Source: Verrucomicrobia bacterium LP2A (lineage in GTDB: Bacteria; Verrucomicrobiota; Verrucomicrobiia; Methylacidiphilales; Methylacidiphilaceae). Taken from it: DNA of 64,000 bases. Positions 7,851-18,256 of this stretch are shown here, piece after piece (positions within the stretch are counted from its first letter, which is position 1; each line of letters starts with the position of its first letter). The notes under the pieces were generated by a model. It searched no databases. It was not told where the DNA came from and saw only the letters and a program-made list of their open reading frames with translations. Position numbers and translations under genes: made by a program. The stretch spans positions 496,001 to 560,000 of the forward strand of contig JAFS01000001.1 of assembly GCA_000526255.1 (NCBI GenBank), in the 5' to 3' direction.

Positions 7851-9506
7851 CTTCTTGCCGCAGCCATCTTGTGCTTAACTTTAGCCAGCCTGCCAGCAGA
7901 GGCCAGCAGCTTGGCGGAATTGGTGCAAGCGGCCAAGAAGGGGGATGCCGAGGCGCAGTGCAAGCTGGGCCTTGCCTATTACCAAGGCCAAGGAGTTTCC
8001 CGGGATTATGCACAGGCGGTCTATTGGTATCGAAAATCGGCAGAGCAGGGGAATGCCCTGGCGGAATTCAGCCTGGCTGTTGCCTATGAGCGGGGTCGAG
8101 GCGTTCCGCAGGATTACGCTCAGGCGGTGTATTGGTATCGGAAAGCCGCTGAGCAGGGGGATGCCCAGGCGCAATGCAATCTGGGTGTTGCCTACCACAA
8201 AGGGGAAGGCGTTCCGCAGGATTACGCTCAGGCGGTGTATTGGTCCCGGAAAGCCGCTGAGCAGGGGGATGCCCAGGCGCAATTCAACCTAGGTGTTGCC
8301 TACCACAAAGGGGAAGGCGTTCCGCAGGATTCCACGCAGGCGGTGAATTGGTTTCGGAAAGCAGCCGAGCAGGGGGATGCCAAGGCGCAATGCAATCTGG
8401 GCGTTGCCTACCACAAAGGGGAAGGCGTTCCGCAGGATTACGCTCAGGCGGTGTATTGGTCCCGGAAAGCCGCTGAGCAGGGGGATGCCCAGGCGCAATT
8501 CAGCCTGGGTGCTGCTTACCGCGAAGGGGAAGGCGTTCCGCAGGATTCTACCCAGGCGGTGAGTTGGTTTCGGAAGGCGGCCGAACAGGGGGACGCTGCC
8601 GCGCAATTCAGCCTGGGTGCTGCCTACCACGAAGGGAAGGGCGTTCCGCAGGATTATGCTCAGGCGGTGAATTGGTATCGGAAGGCGGCCGAACAGGGGC
8701 TTGCTCAGGCGCAACGCATCCTGGGCGTTGCCTACGACGAAGGGGAAGGCGTTCCGCAGGATTCCACCCAGGCGGTCAGTTGGTTTTACATGGCCGCCGA
8801 GCAGGGGGATGCCCAGGCGCAATTTAGCCTGGGCGCTGCTTATGACCGGGGCCGGGGTGTACCGCAGGATTATGCTCAGGCGGTGTATTGGTATCGGAGG
8901 GCCGCCGAGCAGGGGGATGCCCAGGCGCAATGCAACCTGGGCGTTGCCTGTGACCAGGGCCGGGGTGTGCCGCAGGATTCTACCCAGGCGGTGTATTGGT
9001 ATCGTAAAGCAGCCGAGCACGGGCTTGCCCAAGCACAATTCAACCTAGCCTTTGCCTACCACAAAGGCCGAGGTGTGCTGCAGGATTCCACGCAGGCAGT
9101 GAATTGGTATCGGAAGGCGGCCGAGCAGGGGCTTGCCCAGGCGCAATGCAAGCTGGGCTTTGCCTATTTGCTTGGCCAAGGCGTTCCGCAGGATTCTACC
9201 CAGGCGGTCAATTGGTTTTACAAGGCTGCCGAGCAGGGGGATGCCCAGGCGCAGTTCAGCCTGGGCTATGCCTACGACCGGGGTCGAGGTGTGCCGCAGG
9301 ATTATGCTCAGGCGGTGTATTGGTATCGGAGAGCCGCCGAGCAGGGGGATGCTGGGGCACAAACCTCGCTGGGCTTTGCCTACGAGCTTGGCCAAGGCGT
9401 TCCGCAGGATTATGCTCAGGCGGTGTATTGGTATCAGAAAGCCGCCGAGCAGGGGGAAGCCGAGGCGAAGAAGCGTCTGGCCGTCCTCGAAGGCGGAGGA
9501 AAATAG
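7836..9506 (+). CDS. Secreted Sel1-like repeat protein, 14 repeats
   Basis: The start is the GTG at 7836, seven bases after a GGGAGG ribosome site; an upstream in-frame codon at 7824 has no such site. The 556-residue product has a signal peptide (KKPSLLAAAILCLTLASL, cleaved near PAEASS). It is then almost entirely 14 tandem 36-residue Sel1 units of the pattern AEQGDAQAQ.xLGxAYxxGxG VPQDYAQAVYWYRKA. Each unit folds as a pair of TPR-like helices, so the protein is a long solenoid scaffold in the periplasm or outside the cell. The partner is unknown. The units are near identical in DNA as well, so copy number may vary by recombination. A second, dead copy lies downstream (9839-10034). Confidence 0.9.
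   Translation: MKKPSLLAAAILCLTLASLPAEASSLAELVQAAKKGDAEAQCKLGLAYYQGQGVSRDYAQAVYWYRKSAEQGNALAEFSLAVAYERGRGVPQDYAQAVYWYRKAAEQGDAQAQCNLGVAYHKGEGVPQDYAQAVYWSRKAAEQGDAQAQFNLGVAYHKGEGVPQDSTQAVNWFRKAAEQGDAKAQCNLGVAYHKGEGVPQDYAQAVYWSRKAAEQGDAQAQFSLGAAYREGEGVPQDSTQAVSWFRKAAEQGDAAAQFSLGAAYHEGKGVPQDYAQAVNWYRKAAEQGLAQAQRILGVAYDEGEGVPQDSTQAVSWFYMAAEQGDAQAQFSLGAAYDRGRGVPQDYAQAVYWYRRAAEQGDAQAQCNLGVACDQGRGVPQDSTQAVYWYRKAAEHGLAQAQFNLAFAYHKGRGVLQDSTQAVNWYRKAAEQGLAQAQCKLGFAYLLGQGVPQDSTQAVNWFYKAAEQGDAQAQFSLGYAYDRGRGVPQDYAQAVYWYRRAAEQGDAGAQTSLGFAYELGQGVPQDYAQAVYWYQKAAEQGEAEAKKRLAVLEGGGK
7924..9440 (+). repeat. Tandem array of about fourteen 108-bp units
   Basis: The Sel1 coding units recur every 108 bases with strongly conserved blocks such as GGCGTTCCGCAGGATT and GCCGAGCAGGGGGATGCC. 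Two subtypes alternate irregularly: one with 'DYAQAVYW' and one with 'DSTQAVNW' after the VPQ box. This is a coding minisatellite and a likely hot spot for unit gain and loss. Confidence 0.85.
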
Positions 9507-14188: not shown

Positions 14189-14578
14189 ATGCAACTCAGG
14201 CTCGGCCATGCGATTGCGCTCGCGGCGATCTGGCTCTCCCTCTCTGCGTCCGCACGGGCTTCCCAAGCCTACTGGTACGAGATCCGCGTGACCCATGCTC
14301 AGAACAAGGGTCCGGTCGTCAAGCGGATCGGCCCCGAGTACGACGAGAAGCCCGGCATCCCGATCTACCTGCGAGGCACGCCCGCTCGCTACCATATCCT
14401 GGGAGCCATCTACATCGACGAGACCCGCCTCATTGATTCGACCTGGCGTCCCGTCGAAAGAGTGGCCGTCAAGCATGGGGCCCGCGGGGTGATTCTCTTC
14501 ACCAAGCAAGAGAAGAAGCGCTATTCCCGCGCATCGGGAAATCTCTCCGACCAACTCTGGGTCTGGTGCTATCGATAA
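14189..14578 (+). CDS. Small secreted protein, paralogue of 56406-56786
   Basis: 129 residues with a signal peptide (LGHAIALAAIWLSLSASARA). The mature part contains YHILGAIYIDETRLIDSTW, then RPVERVAVKHGARGVILF. The same layout (YVIIGSIRATGG, then RAVEVAREHGADAILW) occurs in the protein at 56406-56786, so these are members of one family although distant. The repeated Y-x-I-x-G-x-I ... V-x-x-A-x-x-HGA-x-x-I/V pattern suggests a small alpha/beta domain. No function is known to me. Confidence 0.65.
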   Translation: MQLRLGHAIALAAIWLSLSASARASQAYWYEIRVTHAQNKGPVVKRIGPEYDEKPGIPIYLRGTPARYHILGAIYIDETRLIDSTWRPVERVAVKHGARGVILFTKQEKKRYSRASGNLSDQLWVWCYR

Positions 14579-15178
14579 GGATCGGTCTTCCCATATTCCA
14601 ACAGGAAGGCGATCCGGTCCGTGCAGGCTCCTTTTGGAGCTATGCGGGTCCAATTCCTTTTGGCCTTCTTTCCTCCATTCCATAACGGGTGCGCGGTAAA
14701 CGGGCTGGGAAGCGACCCGGCTTTCCATCGGAGCGGCATGAGGAGATTCGGCGTGGAGGGAAAAGCGAGCGAGGGCGAGGCAGGTCGTTGTGGAACGCAG
14801 CAGGAGAAAGCTTTCGACAAATGACAGCTCGGAAGAATGAGGGTATCATTCCATTCTGAGTGCAACGACTGCTCCGAATGCTAACGCTTCTCTCACTTTC
14901 TGAACGCCCGCAGATGCGTATCGTGTGAGTTATCGAAAATAGCATCTGTCTCTGTATCACGTACTTGTAGTGTAGCTCCGCACAACGAACGTTCCCGGAG
15001 CGGAAAAACTTTCCCGTTGTTCGCTCGCTGCTCGGCCGTTACGGTTACTGTCGAAAACCCGATCAGCAAATGCCGAACGGTCTTTCGGCCGACATCCCGG
15101 CAGGATGACGGCCTCGTATGAGAAGTCAGTAATATGAGGCACGACAAAGTGCAGTGAGATGAGGGAGGAATCACCGAT
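14579..15178. other. Long intergenic region ahead of pmoC
   Basis: 600 bases with no convincing gene; the short frames present lack homology and ribosome sites. The part from about 14820 is richer in A/T than the surroundings and should hold the pmoC promoter. I could not pick a convincing -35/-10 pair. A clear ribosome site (GAGGGAGGAA) lies just before the pmoC start. Confidence 0.5.
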
Positions 15179-16018
15179 ATGGAAGAAACTCAAGTGACGA
15201 CCGTGGCGGTTGCAAGCCCGCCGCTGACCGCCTTTTCCTGGAAACGTGCGGGGATCGCCATCGGGGCGCTGCTCGCCTTTGATCTATTGATCAATGTGTA
15301 TGAAAGGCTCTACGGCTTTTCGAAGGGTCTTGATTACTCGTCTCCAGAATATGGCTCCTACTGGATGGCCATGCTCCTCGCGGAGCTGGTCCTCGAGATG
15401 ATCACCGCGGCGGCTCTCTGGGGCTGGCTCTGGAAGAGCCGGGACCGCGCGCTCGACCGGCTCGCCCCGGCGGAGGAACTCAAGAGGTATTGGGCGTTGG
15501 GGCTCTTCTTGCTGACCTATGCCTGCGCGGCCTATGCGGGTGCGAGCTACTTCACCGAGCAGGGCGCTGCCTGGCACCAGACGGTAATCCGGGATACCGA
15601 CTTCACGCCGACGAACATCGTCGCGTTCTACCTCAGCTATCCGATCTACATCCTCTTCGGAGTCGGCTCGCTGATCTACGCCATGACCCGGTTGCCTCAG
15701 TTTGCTACGGCAATGTCCTTGCCCTTGACGGTGCTGGTGGGGAGCCCGCTCATGAACTTCCCGAACGTGGCGATGAATGAGTTCGGCCATACGCGCTGGT
15801 TCGTGGAGGAGCTCTTCGTGGCTCCGCAGCACTGGGGATTCGTCGTCTTCGGGTGGGGTGCGCTGGCGATCCTCGGGACTTGGCTGCAGATCTGCCCGCG
15901 GGTCATGGCGCTGATCCAGCATCTCTACTCCGGAAAGCCGCTTCCGAGCGCGGCCGAGACGATGAAGGATCCGCAAGGCTCCGTCCATCCCATCGCGCGG
16001 GCGGCTCGAACGAGCTAA
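15179..16018 (+). CDS. pmoC: Orphan PmoC (particulate methane monooxygenase subunit C) lacking two metal ligands
   Basis: A 279-residue integral membrane protein with the CuMMO subunit C signature: WHQTVIRDTDFTPTN, FYLSYPIYI, FPNVAMNEFGH and RWFVEELFVAPQHWGFV, within about six helices. The start follows GAGGGAGGAA. In characterised PmoC the CuC/CuD site is Asp-x3-His-x12-His. Here the same positions are Gly129, His133 and Asn146 (EQGAAWH and FTPTN), so two of three ligands are replaced. No pmoA or pmoB is adjacent. The protein may be catalytically silent, bind copper differently, or act in assembly or regulation. The family call is certain by motif; the ligand comparison relies on my recollection of family sequences and should be aligned. 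Confidence 0.88.
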   Translation: MEETQVTTVAVASPPLTAFSWKRAGIAIGALLAFDLLINVYERLYGFSKGLDYSSPEYGSYWMAMLLAELVLEMITAAALWGWLWKSRDRALDRLAPAEELKRYWALGLFLLTYACAAYAGASYFTEQGAAWHQTVIRDTDFTPTNIVAFYLSYPIYILFGVGSLIYAMTRLPQFATAMSLPLTVLVGSPLMNFPNVAMNEFGHTRWFVEELFVAPQHWGFVVFGWGALAILGTWLQICPRVMALIQHLYSGKPLPSAAETMKDPQGSVHPIARAARTS

Positions 16019-16043: not shown

Positions 16044-17081
16044 TCAAGCGGGGCGAGAAGCCTCTCGTCCCCGCTTCCGCGTCTCCTGCTCCGATGCAGC
16101 GAGGCAAAGCTCGACCTGCGCCAAGAGTGGCTCCAACCCGGGGATTCGTCGGAGCACCTCGGCGAGCAGCCGCAAGGCCACGGGAATGTGGGAGAGAAAC
16201 TCCTCCTTTTTCTTGACCAGTCCGAGATAGCCATAGGCCCCCAGGGCCTGCATCAGCCGCTGGAGGGCTGCCCAATCGAATGCCTCTTCAAGATCTTCTG
16301 GTGGCCTGAGCGAGTCCTCCCGCCACAGGGAGGCATAATAGCTCCGGAGCTCTGTTCTCCGCTCTGCGTCGAGGCCGACGTAGGGATCGTAGAGGAGGGA
16401 TGCCAGATCGTAGGCGGGCAGCCCGAGCCGCATTCCTTGGAAATCGATGAGATAAGCTTGCCCCGCCCGGATCAGAACATTCTTTGACTGGAAATCGCGA
16501 TGGATCAGATGGCGAGGGAATGCCGCGAGGCGCTCGGCGATCCAGGTGAGCCGCGGAAGGGCTGAGAGGCGGGAGAGCGGACCGGCATCCAGGTGGAAGA
16601 AGCGTCCGAGGCAGTTCCGAAAGAAGTAGCCCTGCTCCCAAGCGTAGAGATCCCGGGTGAATGGCGGCTCCGTTCGAAGCCCTCCGAGCCTCCTCTCGCC
16701 CTTGGCGTGGAGGGTGAAGATTTCCCGCAAGGCCGAGCGATAAAGGGAGCCCAGCTCCGGCCAAGGCGCGTTACGATAGCTCCAGAGATCCGAGTCCCCC
16801 AGATCCTCGATCCAGAGCAGCCCCTGCAGCGGATCCTGGCTGTAAATCCTGGGAGAGCGAACTCCGAGGGAGTGGAGAAAATCACCCAGGGGACCGTGCA
16901 GGGCATTTTCGAGTCGGCTCTTTCCGTAGCGGACGAGGATGAGTGAAGAGCTCGGCTCGACGCGAATTCGATAAAATTCCCGGTCCGATCCCCCCTTTTC
17001 GAGCTTGGTGATCCAGGTCCGGTCCGGCTCGTACTGCGGAAAGCGGTGTGCGGTTTCCGCCAGAAGCTGATCGAGGAGCAT
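16044..17081 (-). CDS. amgK: AmgK-like anomeric sugar kinase (peptidoglycan recycling)
   Basis: A 345-residue aminoglycoside-phosphotransferase-fold kinase. The catalytic loop HRDFQSKNVLI (about residue 190) and the metal loop IDFQGMRLG (about 208) are intact. GGSDREFYRIRV near the N terminus matches the GSDRxFYR segment of the cell-wall sugar kinase branch. The upstream gene, three bases away on the same strand, is a nucleotidyltransferase of the MurU type. That pairing defines the AmgK-MurU salvage route, which phosphorylates N-acetylmuramate at C1 and then makes UDP-MurNAc, bypassing MurA. Context supports the role; GlcNAc may also be a substrate. Confidence 0.78.
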   Translation of the reverse strand: MLLDQLLAETAHRFPQYEPDRTWITKLEKGGSDREFYRIRVEPSSSLILVRYGKSRLENALHGPLGDFLHSLGVRSPRIYSQDPLQGLLWIEDLGDSDLWSYRNAPWPELGSLYRSALREIFTLHAKGERRLGGLRTEPPFTRDLYAWEQGYFFRNCLGRFFHLDAGPLSRLSALPRLTWIAERLAAFPRHLIHRDFQSKNVLIRAGQAYLIDFQGMRLGLPAYDLASLLYDPYVGLDAERRTELRSYYASLWREDSLRPPEDLEEAFDWAALQRLMQALGAYGYLGLVKKKEEFLSHIPVALRLLAEVLRRIPGLEPLLAQVELCLAASEQETRKRGREASRPA

Positions 17082-17084
17082 GAG

Positions 17085-18038
17085 CTAAAGATCTGCGTCC
17101 ACCAGGTTGCCCTTGGCAAGACGGGAGTTACGGACGACGCAGCGTTCGAGCACGCTGCCCGGGGCAACCTCCGCGCCTTCCCAAAGAATCGAGTCACGCA
17201 GGAGGGCGCCGCTGCCCACGCGGCATCGCGGTCCGATCGCCGTCGCCCCTTCGAGGAGTGCATCCGGTGCCACCCGAGCCGTGGGGTCGATCCAGCAGAG
17301 GGGTTTCCACCCTCCCGGGTTTCGGTGCAATTCACGGTGGACCCAGAGATAGGCCTCGCGCGTTCCCAGGTCGAACCAGCACCCTTGGTCGAGGAGGACT
17401 CCTCCGATGCTGCCGGATCGGCGAATCGCCTCCAGGAAAACGGGGATCAGAGAGGCTGGGCCGTCTCGAGGAATCCAGGGGAGAAAGGAGGGGGAGAGGA
17501 CCGCGATCCCCGTGTAGAGGCAGGGAGGAACGTCCTCCCTTCCCAGCCGCCCATGGATGTCGACCACCTTCCGCTTCACTGGATCGAAGCCGACGTGCAG
17601 CGCGGGGCCAGCGGAACGGAGAACGAGCGTGGCCAAGTCGTCGCCCGCCAGATGCTGCTCGACCGCCTTCTCGATCGGCAGATCGGTGAGGATGTCCCCG
17701 TTATGAATCAAGAAGGGTCGATCGCCAAAGAGCTCGCCTACGTTCCGCACCCCCCCGCCCGTATCGAGCAAGATGGGCTCGTGGCTCCATCGGATGCGTC
17801 GTCCCCGGTAGGACGCTTCGGGGAAGGCTTTCGCGTAGGCTTCGGGCCGATGGTGGGTGTTGACGACGAATCCCCCGATCCCCATAGCGATCAGACGATC
17901 GAAGGCGAAGGTGAGCAGCGGCTTGTTTGCGATCGGGATCAGCGGCTTGGGACATTCGTCCGTGAGAGGTCGCAGCCGTGTGCCGAGCCCGGCTCCCAGC
18001 ACGAAGGCGTCGTCCGCAAGACGAGGAAACGATGGCAT
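17085..18038 (-). CDS. murU: MurU-like MurNAc-1-phosphate uridylyltransferase
   Basis: A nucleotidyltransferase with the sugar-1-phosphate signature FVLGAGLGTRLRPLT and KPLIPIANKPLL, followed by LIHNGDILTDLPIEKAV (metal Asp) and GCWFDLGTREAYL. The chosen start is the ATG at 18038, where homology begins; the frame is open to 18128. The C-terminal region (IDPTARVAPDALLEGATAIG onward) is a left-handed beta-helix of hexapeptide repeats, longer than in Pseudomonas MurU, so a GlmU-like or mannose-1-phosphate guanylyltransferase role is the alternative. It is the first gene of a two-gene unit with the kinase at 16044-17081. Confidence 0.75.
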   Translation of the reverse strand: MPSFPRLADDAFVLGAGLGTRLRPLTDECPKPLIPIANKPLLTFAFDRLIAMGIGGFVVNTHHRPEAYAKAFPEASYRGRRIRWSHEPILLDTGGGVRNVGELFGDRPFLIHNGDILTDLPIEKAVEQHLAGDDLATLVLRSAGPALHVGFDPVKRKVVDIHGRLGREDVPPCLYTGIAVLSPSFLPWIPRDGPASLIPVFLEAIRRSGSIGGVLLDQGCWFDLGTREAYLWVHRELHRNPGGWKPLCWIDPTARVAPDALLEGATAIGPRCRVGSGALLRDSILWEGAEVAPGSVLERCVVRNSRLAKGNLVDADL

Positions 18039-18256
18039 GGCAGAGAAGCGCAGCTCCCCTTTAAGGGGCAGGGCGATCTTCCCGAGATCGCTTGCGGGCA
18101 AGCTATCCGACCCGTCGCGGAGCCTCAATCCGAATCACCTCGGAGCTCACCCCGGGCCTGCCATTACGGCTGCCCGCTCGTGTGAAGGTTCTTGGAGCAT
18201 GTGAACTCCCGGCGCGCAGGCTCGGAAGGAAAGTCGCGGTGGGTGCAGCCGGTGAT

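Follow-up and report, generated by a model that had tools for sequence, protein, structure and literature searches.

The solitary gene, its family and its surroundings

The window (the whole 64,000-nucleotide stretch of DNA that was analyzed) carries a solitary pmoC gene on the forward strand, the reading frame of which opens with an ATG at position 15179 and closes with a stop codon ending at position 16018 (15179..16018; coordinates exact). The product is an intact PmoC of 279 amino acids that scored 295.5 bits against the Pfam AmoC profile (PF04896), with a span of 13-243 out of 245, and 283.3 bits against the subunit C family TIGR03078, narrowly above the cut-off of 280.6. The score against the AmoC_BACT equivalog was 299.8, under the cut-off of 319. 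Identity to the two operon-encoded PmoC proteins of the same Methylacidimicrobium genome (2.47 Mb) is 76-78%. A structural model of the protein built with AlphaFold from a 42-row alignment free of plasmid-borne loci (pTM 0.73) had only solved PmoC and AmoC chains as significant structural matches, and the best 22 Foldseek matches were all PmoC or AmoC (TMt 0.79-0.83 in the top ten). An AlphaFold model from 13 rows, with a pLDDT of 52, was discarded. In the model that was kept, confidence is low in the copper segments (residues 133-142 and 195-222; pLDDT <50), so consequences for metal binding rest on the sequence and on published structures, and no geometry was read from the model.

The genome encodes three pmoC, two pmoA, and two pmoB genes. 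Both pmoA and both pmoB sit in tandem operons at G000:C1:1.247-1.254 Mb, far from the solitary gene, and tblastn searches with PmoA and PmoB returned no match in the window or at the orthologous loci. The gene is thus an orphan, as the earlier note had described it. Upstream, on one side of the insertion site as defined by synteny, lies a gene for a 129-aa protein (14189..14578, forward strand) with no Pfam or NCBIfam match; downstream, on the other side, synteny and family profiles place an APH/AmgK-like sugar kinase on the reverse strand (16044..17081). This kinase and an adjacent MurU-like nucleotidyltransferase occupy positions 16044-18128, both scoring under the curated NCBIfam cut-offs. 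Together with a DUF748 protein, these are the neighbors of the orphan, and neither ftsH nor a copper gene adjoins it. Elsewhere in the window, a 108-bp unit is repeated in tandem approximately 14 times (7927-9467), and these units may be Sel1-like repeats.

Copper-site residues

In M. capsulatus numbering, the CuC site of PmoC consists of Asp156, His160, and His173 and the CuD site of Asn227, His231, and His245 (PMC12576850). For the PmoC of Methylocystis Rockwell, Asp129, His133, and His146 are given (PMC6572826), a numbering that coincides with that of the earlier note. When aligned to the PmoC of M. capsulatus Bath, residues 129, 133, and 146 of the orphan correspond to Bath positions 156, 160, and 173 and read Gly (codon GGC, 15563..15565), His (CAC, 15575..15577), and Asn (AAC, 15614..15616), all on the forward strand. 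The first and last CuC ligands are therefore replaced, at exactly the residues that had been proposed, and the D-x3-H-x12-H motif is absent; all three orthologues have G-x3-H-x12-N in its place. The CuD triad is whole, consisting of Asn200 (AAT, 15776..15778), His204 (CAT, 15788..15790), and His218 (CAC, 15830..15832) on the forward strand, and N-H-H is likewise found in all three orthologues. The statement that two of three CuC/CuD ligands had been lost consequently applies to CuC but not to CuD, and the description of the protein as ligand-less is too strong given that only CuC is affected.

Nine sites that are near-invariant elsewhere carry changes shared by the orphans alone: T114S, D156G, G157A, S172T, H173N, I220N, G225A, M236V, and L244Q/T. 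Among these are Asn193 in place of Ile220 of Bath (AAC, 15755..15757, forward strand), which is common to the three orphans, and Gln217 in place of Leu244 (CAG, 15827..15829, forward strand), which adjoins a CuD ligand. For eight of the nine, a CuC or CuD ligand is no more than 8 residues away (Fisher p 0.028), and for six it is no more than 2 residues away (Fisher p 0.009). These p-values are indicative only, because several thresholds for the distance were applied, one of which (4 residues) gave p 0.05, and because the ligand positions are part of the counts. One orthologue (G003) additionally has Phe240 replaced by Ser, this being one of three Phe that surround CuD. Arg165 and Phe177 are retained, as is the Asp of the methane-type RDTDF motif; a substrate-preference residue has been proposed (discussed in PMC8630023), and this Asp is taken here as the putative site. 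The orphans have also lost the operon-type C-terminal Cys tail (CxxC, e.g., PAACAACAM). Most operon-encoded PmoC proteins of Methylacidimicrobium have such a conserved tail, an example being L043:9077-9913.

Distribution of the ligand pattern

Both triads, D-H-H and N-H-H, were present in 24 of the 24 other aligned rows, which comprise verrucomicrobial PmoC of all types and that of M. capsulatus. This agrees with the Asp-x3-His-x12-His pattern that the earlier note gave for characterized PmoC, and every operon copy of the clade has D/H/H at the standard columns, so the ligands do not lie elsewhere in this group. Misalignment as the source of the ligand loss was rejected. The literature describes the CuC motif in all PmoC proteins of Methylacidiphilum (PMC6688271), Asp156, His160, and His173 in phage PmoC proteins (PMC7674155), and, in a 2025 paper, conservation of CuC across known methanotrophs (PMC12576850). 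A literature search of partial coverage, with supplementary files outside its scope, yielded no report of a PmoC without these CuC ligands.

The orphan resembles PmoC from the pmoCAB operons of Methylacidimicrobium (TIGR03078, PF04896) in sequence (74-79% identity), fold, leader, and CuD triad, but it differs in the loss of the CuC Asp and His, in altered pocket residues, in the absence of the C-terminal Cys tail, and in having no accompanying pmoA or pmoB. Solitary pmoC of Methylocystis and solitary amoC of Nitrosomonas likewise provide an extra stand-alone C subunit beside full operons; however, those examined, which belong to a set of eight plasmid-borne PmoC, AmoC, and HmoC, keep D-H-H and N-H-H, as does the rest of that set. 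Stand-alone phage PmoC (PMC7674155) also represents a C subunit without A and B, yet all six ligands are present in 80 of 80 viral copies, a set of 80 loci obtained from a scan with proteobacterial-type PmoC, whereas the orphan has lost two. A viral scan with the verrucomicrobial PmoC alignment gave no matches, and the phage GenBank collection contained no PmoC-like match. Finally, the pmoC4 and pmoCA clusters without pmoB in Methylacidiphilum Kam1 are comparable as divergent extra pmoC genes outside a full operon, but they keep the ligands and are paired with pmoA, neither of which is true of the orphan. Genes from Methylacidiphilum (L031 and L032) that were considered as candidate orphan pmoC genes were rejected as being pmoCA pairs.

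Selection and evolutionary history

Two further genomes carry an orthologue, G002 with 96% identity and the MAG STC_89 with 87%, at a locus with the same order of genes: that for the 129-aa protein, pmoC, the kinase gene, and the murU-like gene. The Gly/Asn pair that the earlier note proposed to look for in relatives is thus present at the same locus in two other species, and its occurrence in three separate assemblies led to the rejection of sequencing error or chance. The residues have been held through synonymous drift: Gly129 is encoded by GGC in two of the species but by GGA in the other, and the codon of Ala130 varies between GCT and GCG. Between pairs of orthologues, omega was 0.12-0.16 by NG86 and 0.07-0.09 by YN00, with bootstrap 95% upper limits below 0.24, and dS between the orphan-bearing species was 0.5-1.0. 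In the closest species pair, omega of the orphan equals that of the operon copies, and in more distant pairs it is approximately 2-3 times as high, indicating that the constraint is real and somewhat weaker. These codon comparisons indicate that the orphan is under purifying selection, and the earlier suggestion that the gene is kept under selection is borne out by the full range of omega (0.07-0.16).

The three orphans group together as one clade (100/100), which is nested among the pmoC genes of Methylacidimicrobium and set apart by a long stem (0.23). The orphan is an old duplicate of an operon pmoC that kept a pmo-type leader. M. thermophilum AP8 and M. tartarophylax have the two flanking genes next to each other with no pmoC between them, so the orphan is dispensable, a conserved gene that the genus can nevertheless do without. 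In trees built from the flanking genes, M. tartarophylax and STC_89 group as a pair (90/90 and 98/93), so the simplest history is that the gene was gained here once, long ago, and was later lost in some lineages.

The absence from two relatives, the long stem branch, and the loss of an essential-looking motif would also be expected of a redundant duplicate in slow decay, but omega is well below 1 between species at a dS of 0.5-1.0, and the three open reading frames are intact with the replaced residues constant. Decay by frameshift, which the earlier note named as a competing possibility, was rejected, as a frameshifted copy was found in no relative. Slow decay is therefore already disfavored and is considered very unlikely. 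As a separate observation, the stretch matched by the flanking kinase contains one TAG stop in M. tartarophylax (G006:C4:3560-4576) and in AP8 (G005:C1:1593923-1594924), the two genomes without the orphan; this TAG may simply be where a shorter protein normally stops.

Leader and regulation

Upstream of the orphan, on the forward strand, is an 88-nt leader (15038..15125) that blastn showed to be homologous to the pmoCAB operon leaders of three relatives and that shows modest covariation. A leader model (R1) had sites only upstream of pmoC genes in seven Methylacidimicrobium genomes and no site in six other genomes of the family; because R1 was built from these same leaders, their recovery is expected, and what is informative is the lack of sites anywhere else. 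No Rfam match was obtained at the orphan locus. The leader matches that of the AP8 pmoCAB2 operon with 81% identity over 78 bases, the second tandem operon of AP8 (G005) having been equated with pmoCAB2 by locus-tag order. In AP8, pmoCAB2 is highly expressed at the maximum growth rate and pmoCAB1 is hardly expressed (PMC7907005). Codon adaptation to pmo genes, which is weak evidence, was 0.61 for the orphan, 0.65 for pmoC, and mostly 0.49-0.57 for the neighbors, one of which reached 0.66. A single sigma-70-like match was found in the orphan region, near chance level. The solitary amoC of Nitrosomonas is characterized by a sigma E-type stress promoter of its own.

A stand-alone gene with a pmo leader, an altered metal site, and a lost operon-type C-terminal CxxC tail could encode a PmoC that acts alone as a copper sensor or quality-control protein, and a role of this kind has been speculated for solitary pmoC beside ftsH in Methylocystis (PMC3794950). 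With no ftsH or copper gene adjoining, with neighbors limited to the DUF748 protein, the 129-aa protein, and the AmgK/MurU-like pair, and with all ligands retained in the solitary PmoC and AmoC examined elsewhere, such a function seems improbable for the orphan.

Possible functions and significance

The earlier note envisaged either a PmoC that serves assembly, copper sensing, or regulation without catalysis or one with a different active site, and the present evidence fits both. The explanation favored here, for which the chances appear about even, is that a duplicated PmoC has become specialized as an accessory subunit that lacks CuC and retains CuD, acting either with the operon PmoA and PmoB or alone in the membrane. 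An operon pmoC was duplicated and the copy kept its pmo-type leader. The copper pocket changed, with CuC lost and CuD kept, two hydrophobic residues near the ligands becoming polar, and the Cys tail disappearing, and the protein most likely no longer supports normal methane oxidation. Presumably produced alongside the operons, it may join the operon PmoA and PmoB or sit alone in the membrane, and as an accessory subunit it could tune assembly, the loading of copper, or how much active pMMO is present. That normal methane oxidation is lost or impaired in the orphan is probable by analogy, because mutagenesis of the homologous ligands in HMO abolishes activity, according to the passages of PMC6572826 that cite this work, and because Asp156 and His173, together with Arg165, keep a second-sphere water in place near CuD (PMC12576850). 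It probably joins PmoA and PmoB as an accessory or regulatory subunit, which is the weakest step of the argument.

Whether CuC or CuD is the site of methane oxidation in PmoC is debated, recent work favoring CuD (PMC12576850). The orphan is possibly still active, since the CuD ligands, Arg165, and Phe177 are kept and some groups currently favor CuD as the place of catalysis. As a variant subunit, it might swap into the operon PmoA/PmoB complex and work with the CuD copper alone, its polar pocket conferring another copper affinity or substrate. The intact His160 of the CuC site, the low omega, and the retained putative substrate-preference Asp (RDTDF) would fit such a subunit, as would the observations that simultaneous occupancy of CuC and CuD has never been seen and that work with product analogues backs CuD as the active site (PMC12576850). 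Nonetheless, the inactive HMO mutants and the second-sphere water ordered by Asp156 and His173 count against it, as do the polar residues that Ile220 to Asn and Leu244 to Gln or Thr place beside ligands and the Phe240 to Ser change beside CuD in G003, which together make an active variant unlikely. The stronger proposition, that a natural lineage of PmoC null for CuC and intact for CuD assembles a working complex in which copper-dependent oxidation in vivo, possibly of another substrate, relies on CuD alone, is held to be quite unlikely.

In a genus that can be cultured, and beside full operons, selection has maintained a PmoC from which CuC is gone while CuD remains, so that the two sites are naturally separated. 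Engineering such a separation is difficult, as pMMO has proved refractory to heterologous expression (PMC6572826). Verrucomicrobial PMOs are reported to lack the CuB ligands in PmoB (PMC8630023), in which case PmoC would hold the candidate sites, and an altered gene preserved by selection in three related species offers a natural test of which copper carries out the reaction. It also adds to the unexplained solitary pmoC genes a case in which the changed site speaks against a mere effect of gene dosage. In M. cyclopophantes, a divergent pmoCA pair (L042:6289-7943), with no pmoB within the 15-kb stretch, has in its vicinity a homologue of the DUF748 protein found beside the orphan in the window.
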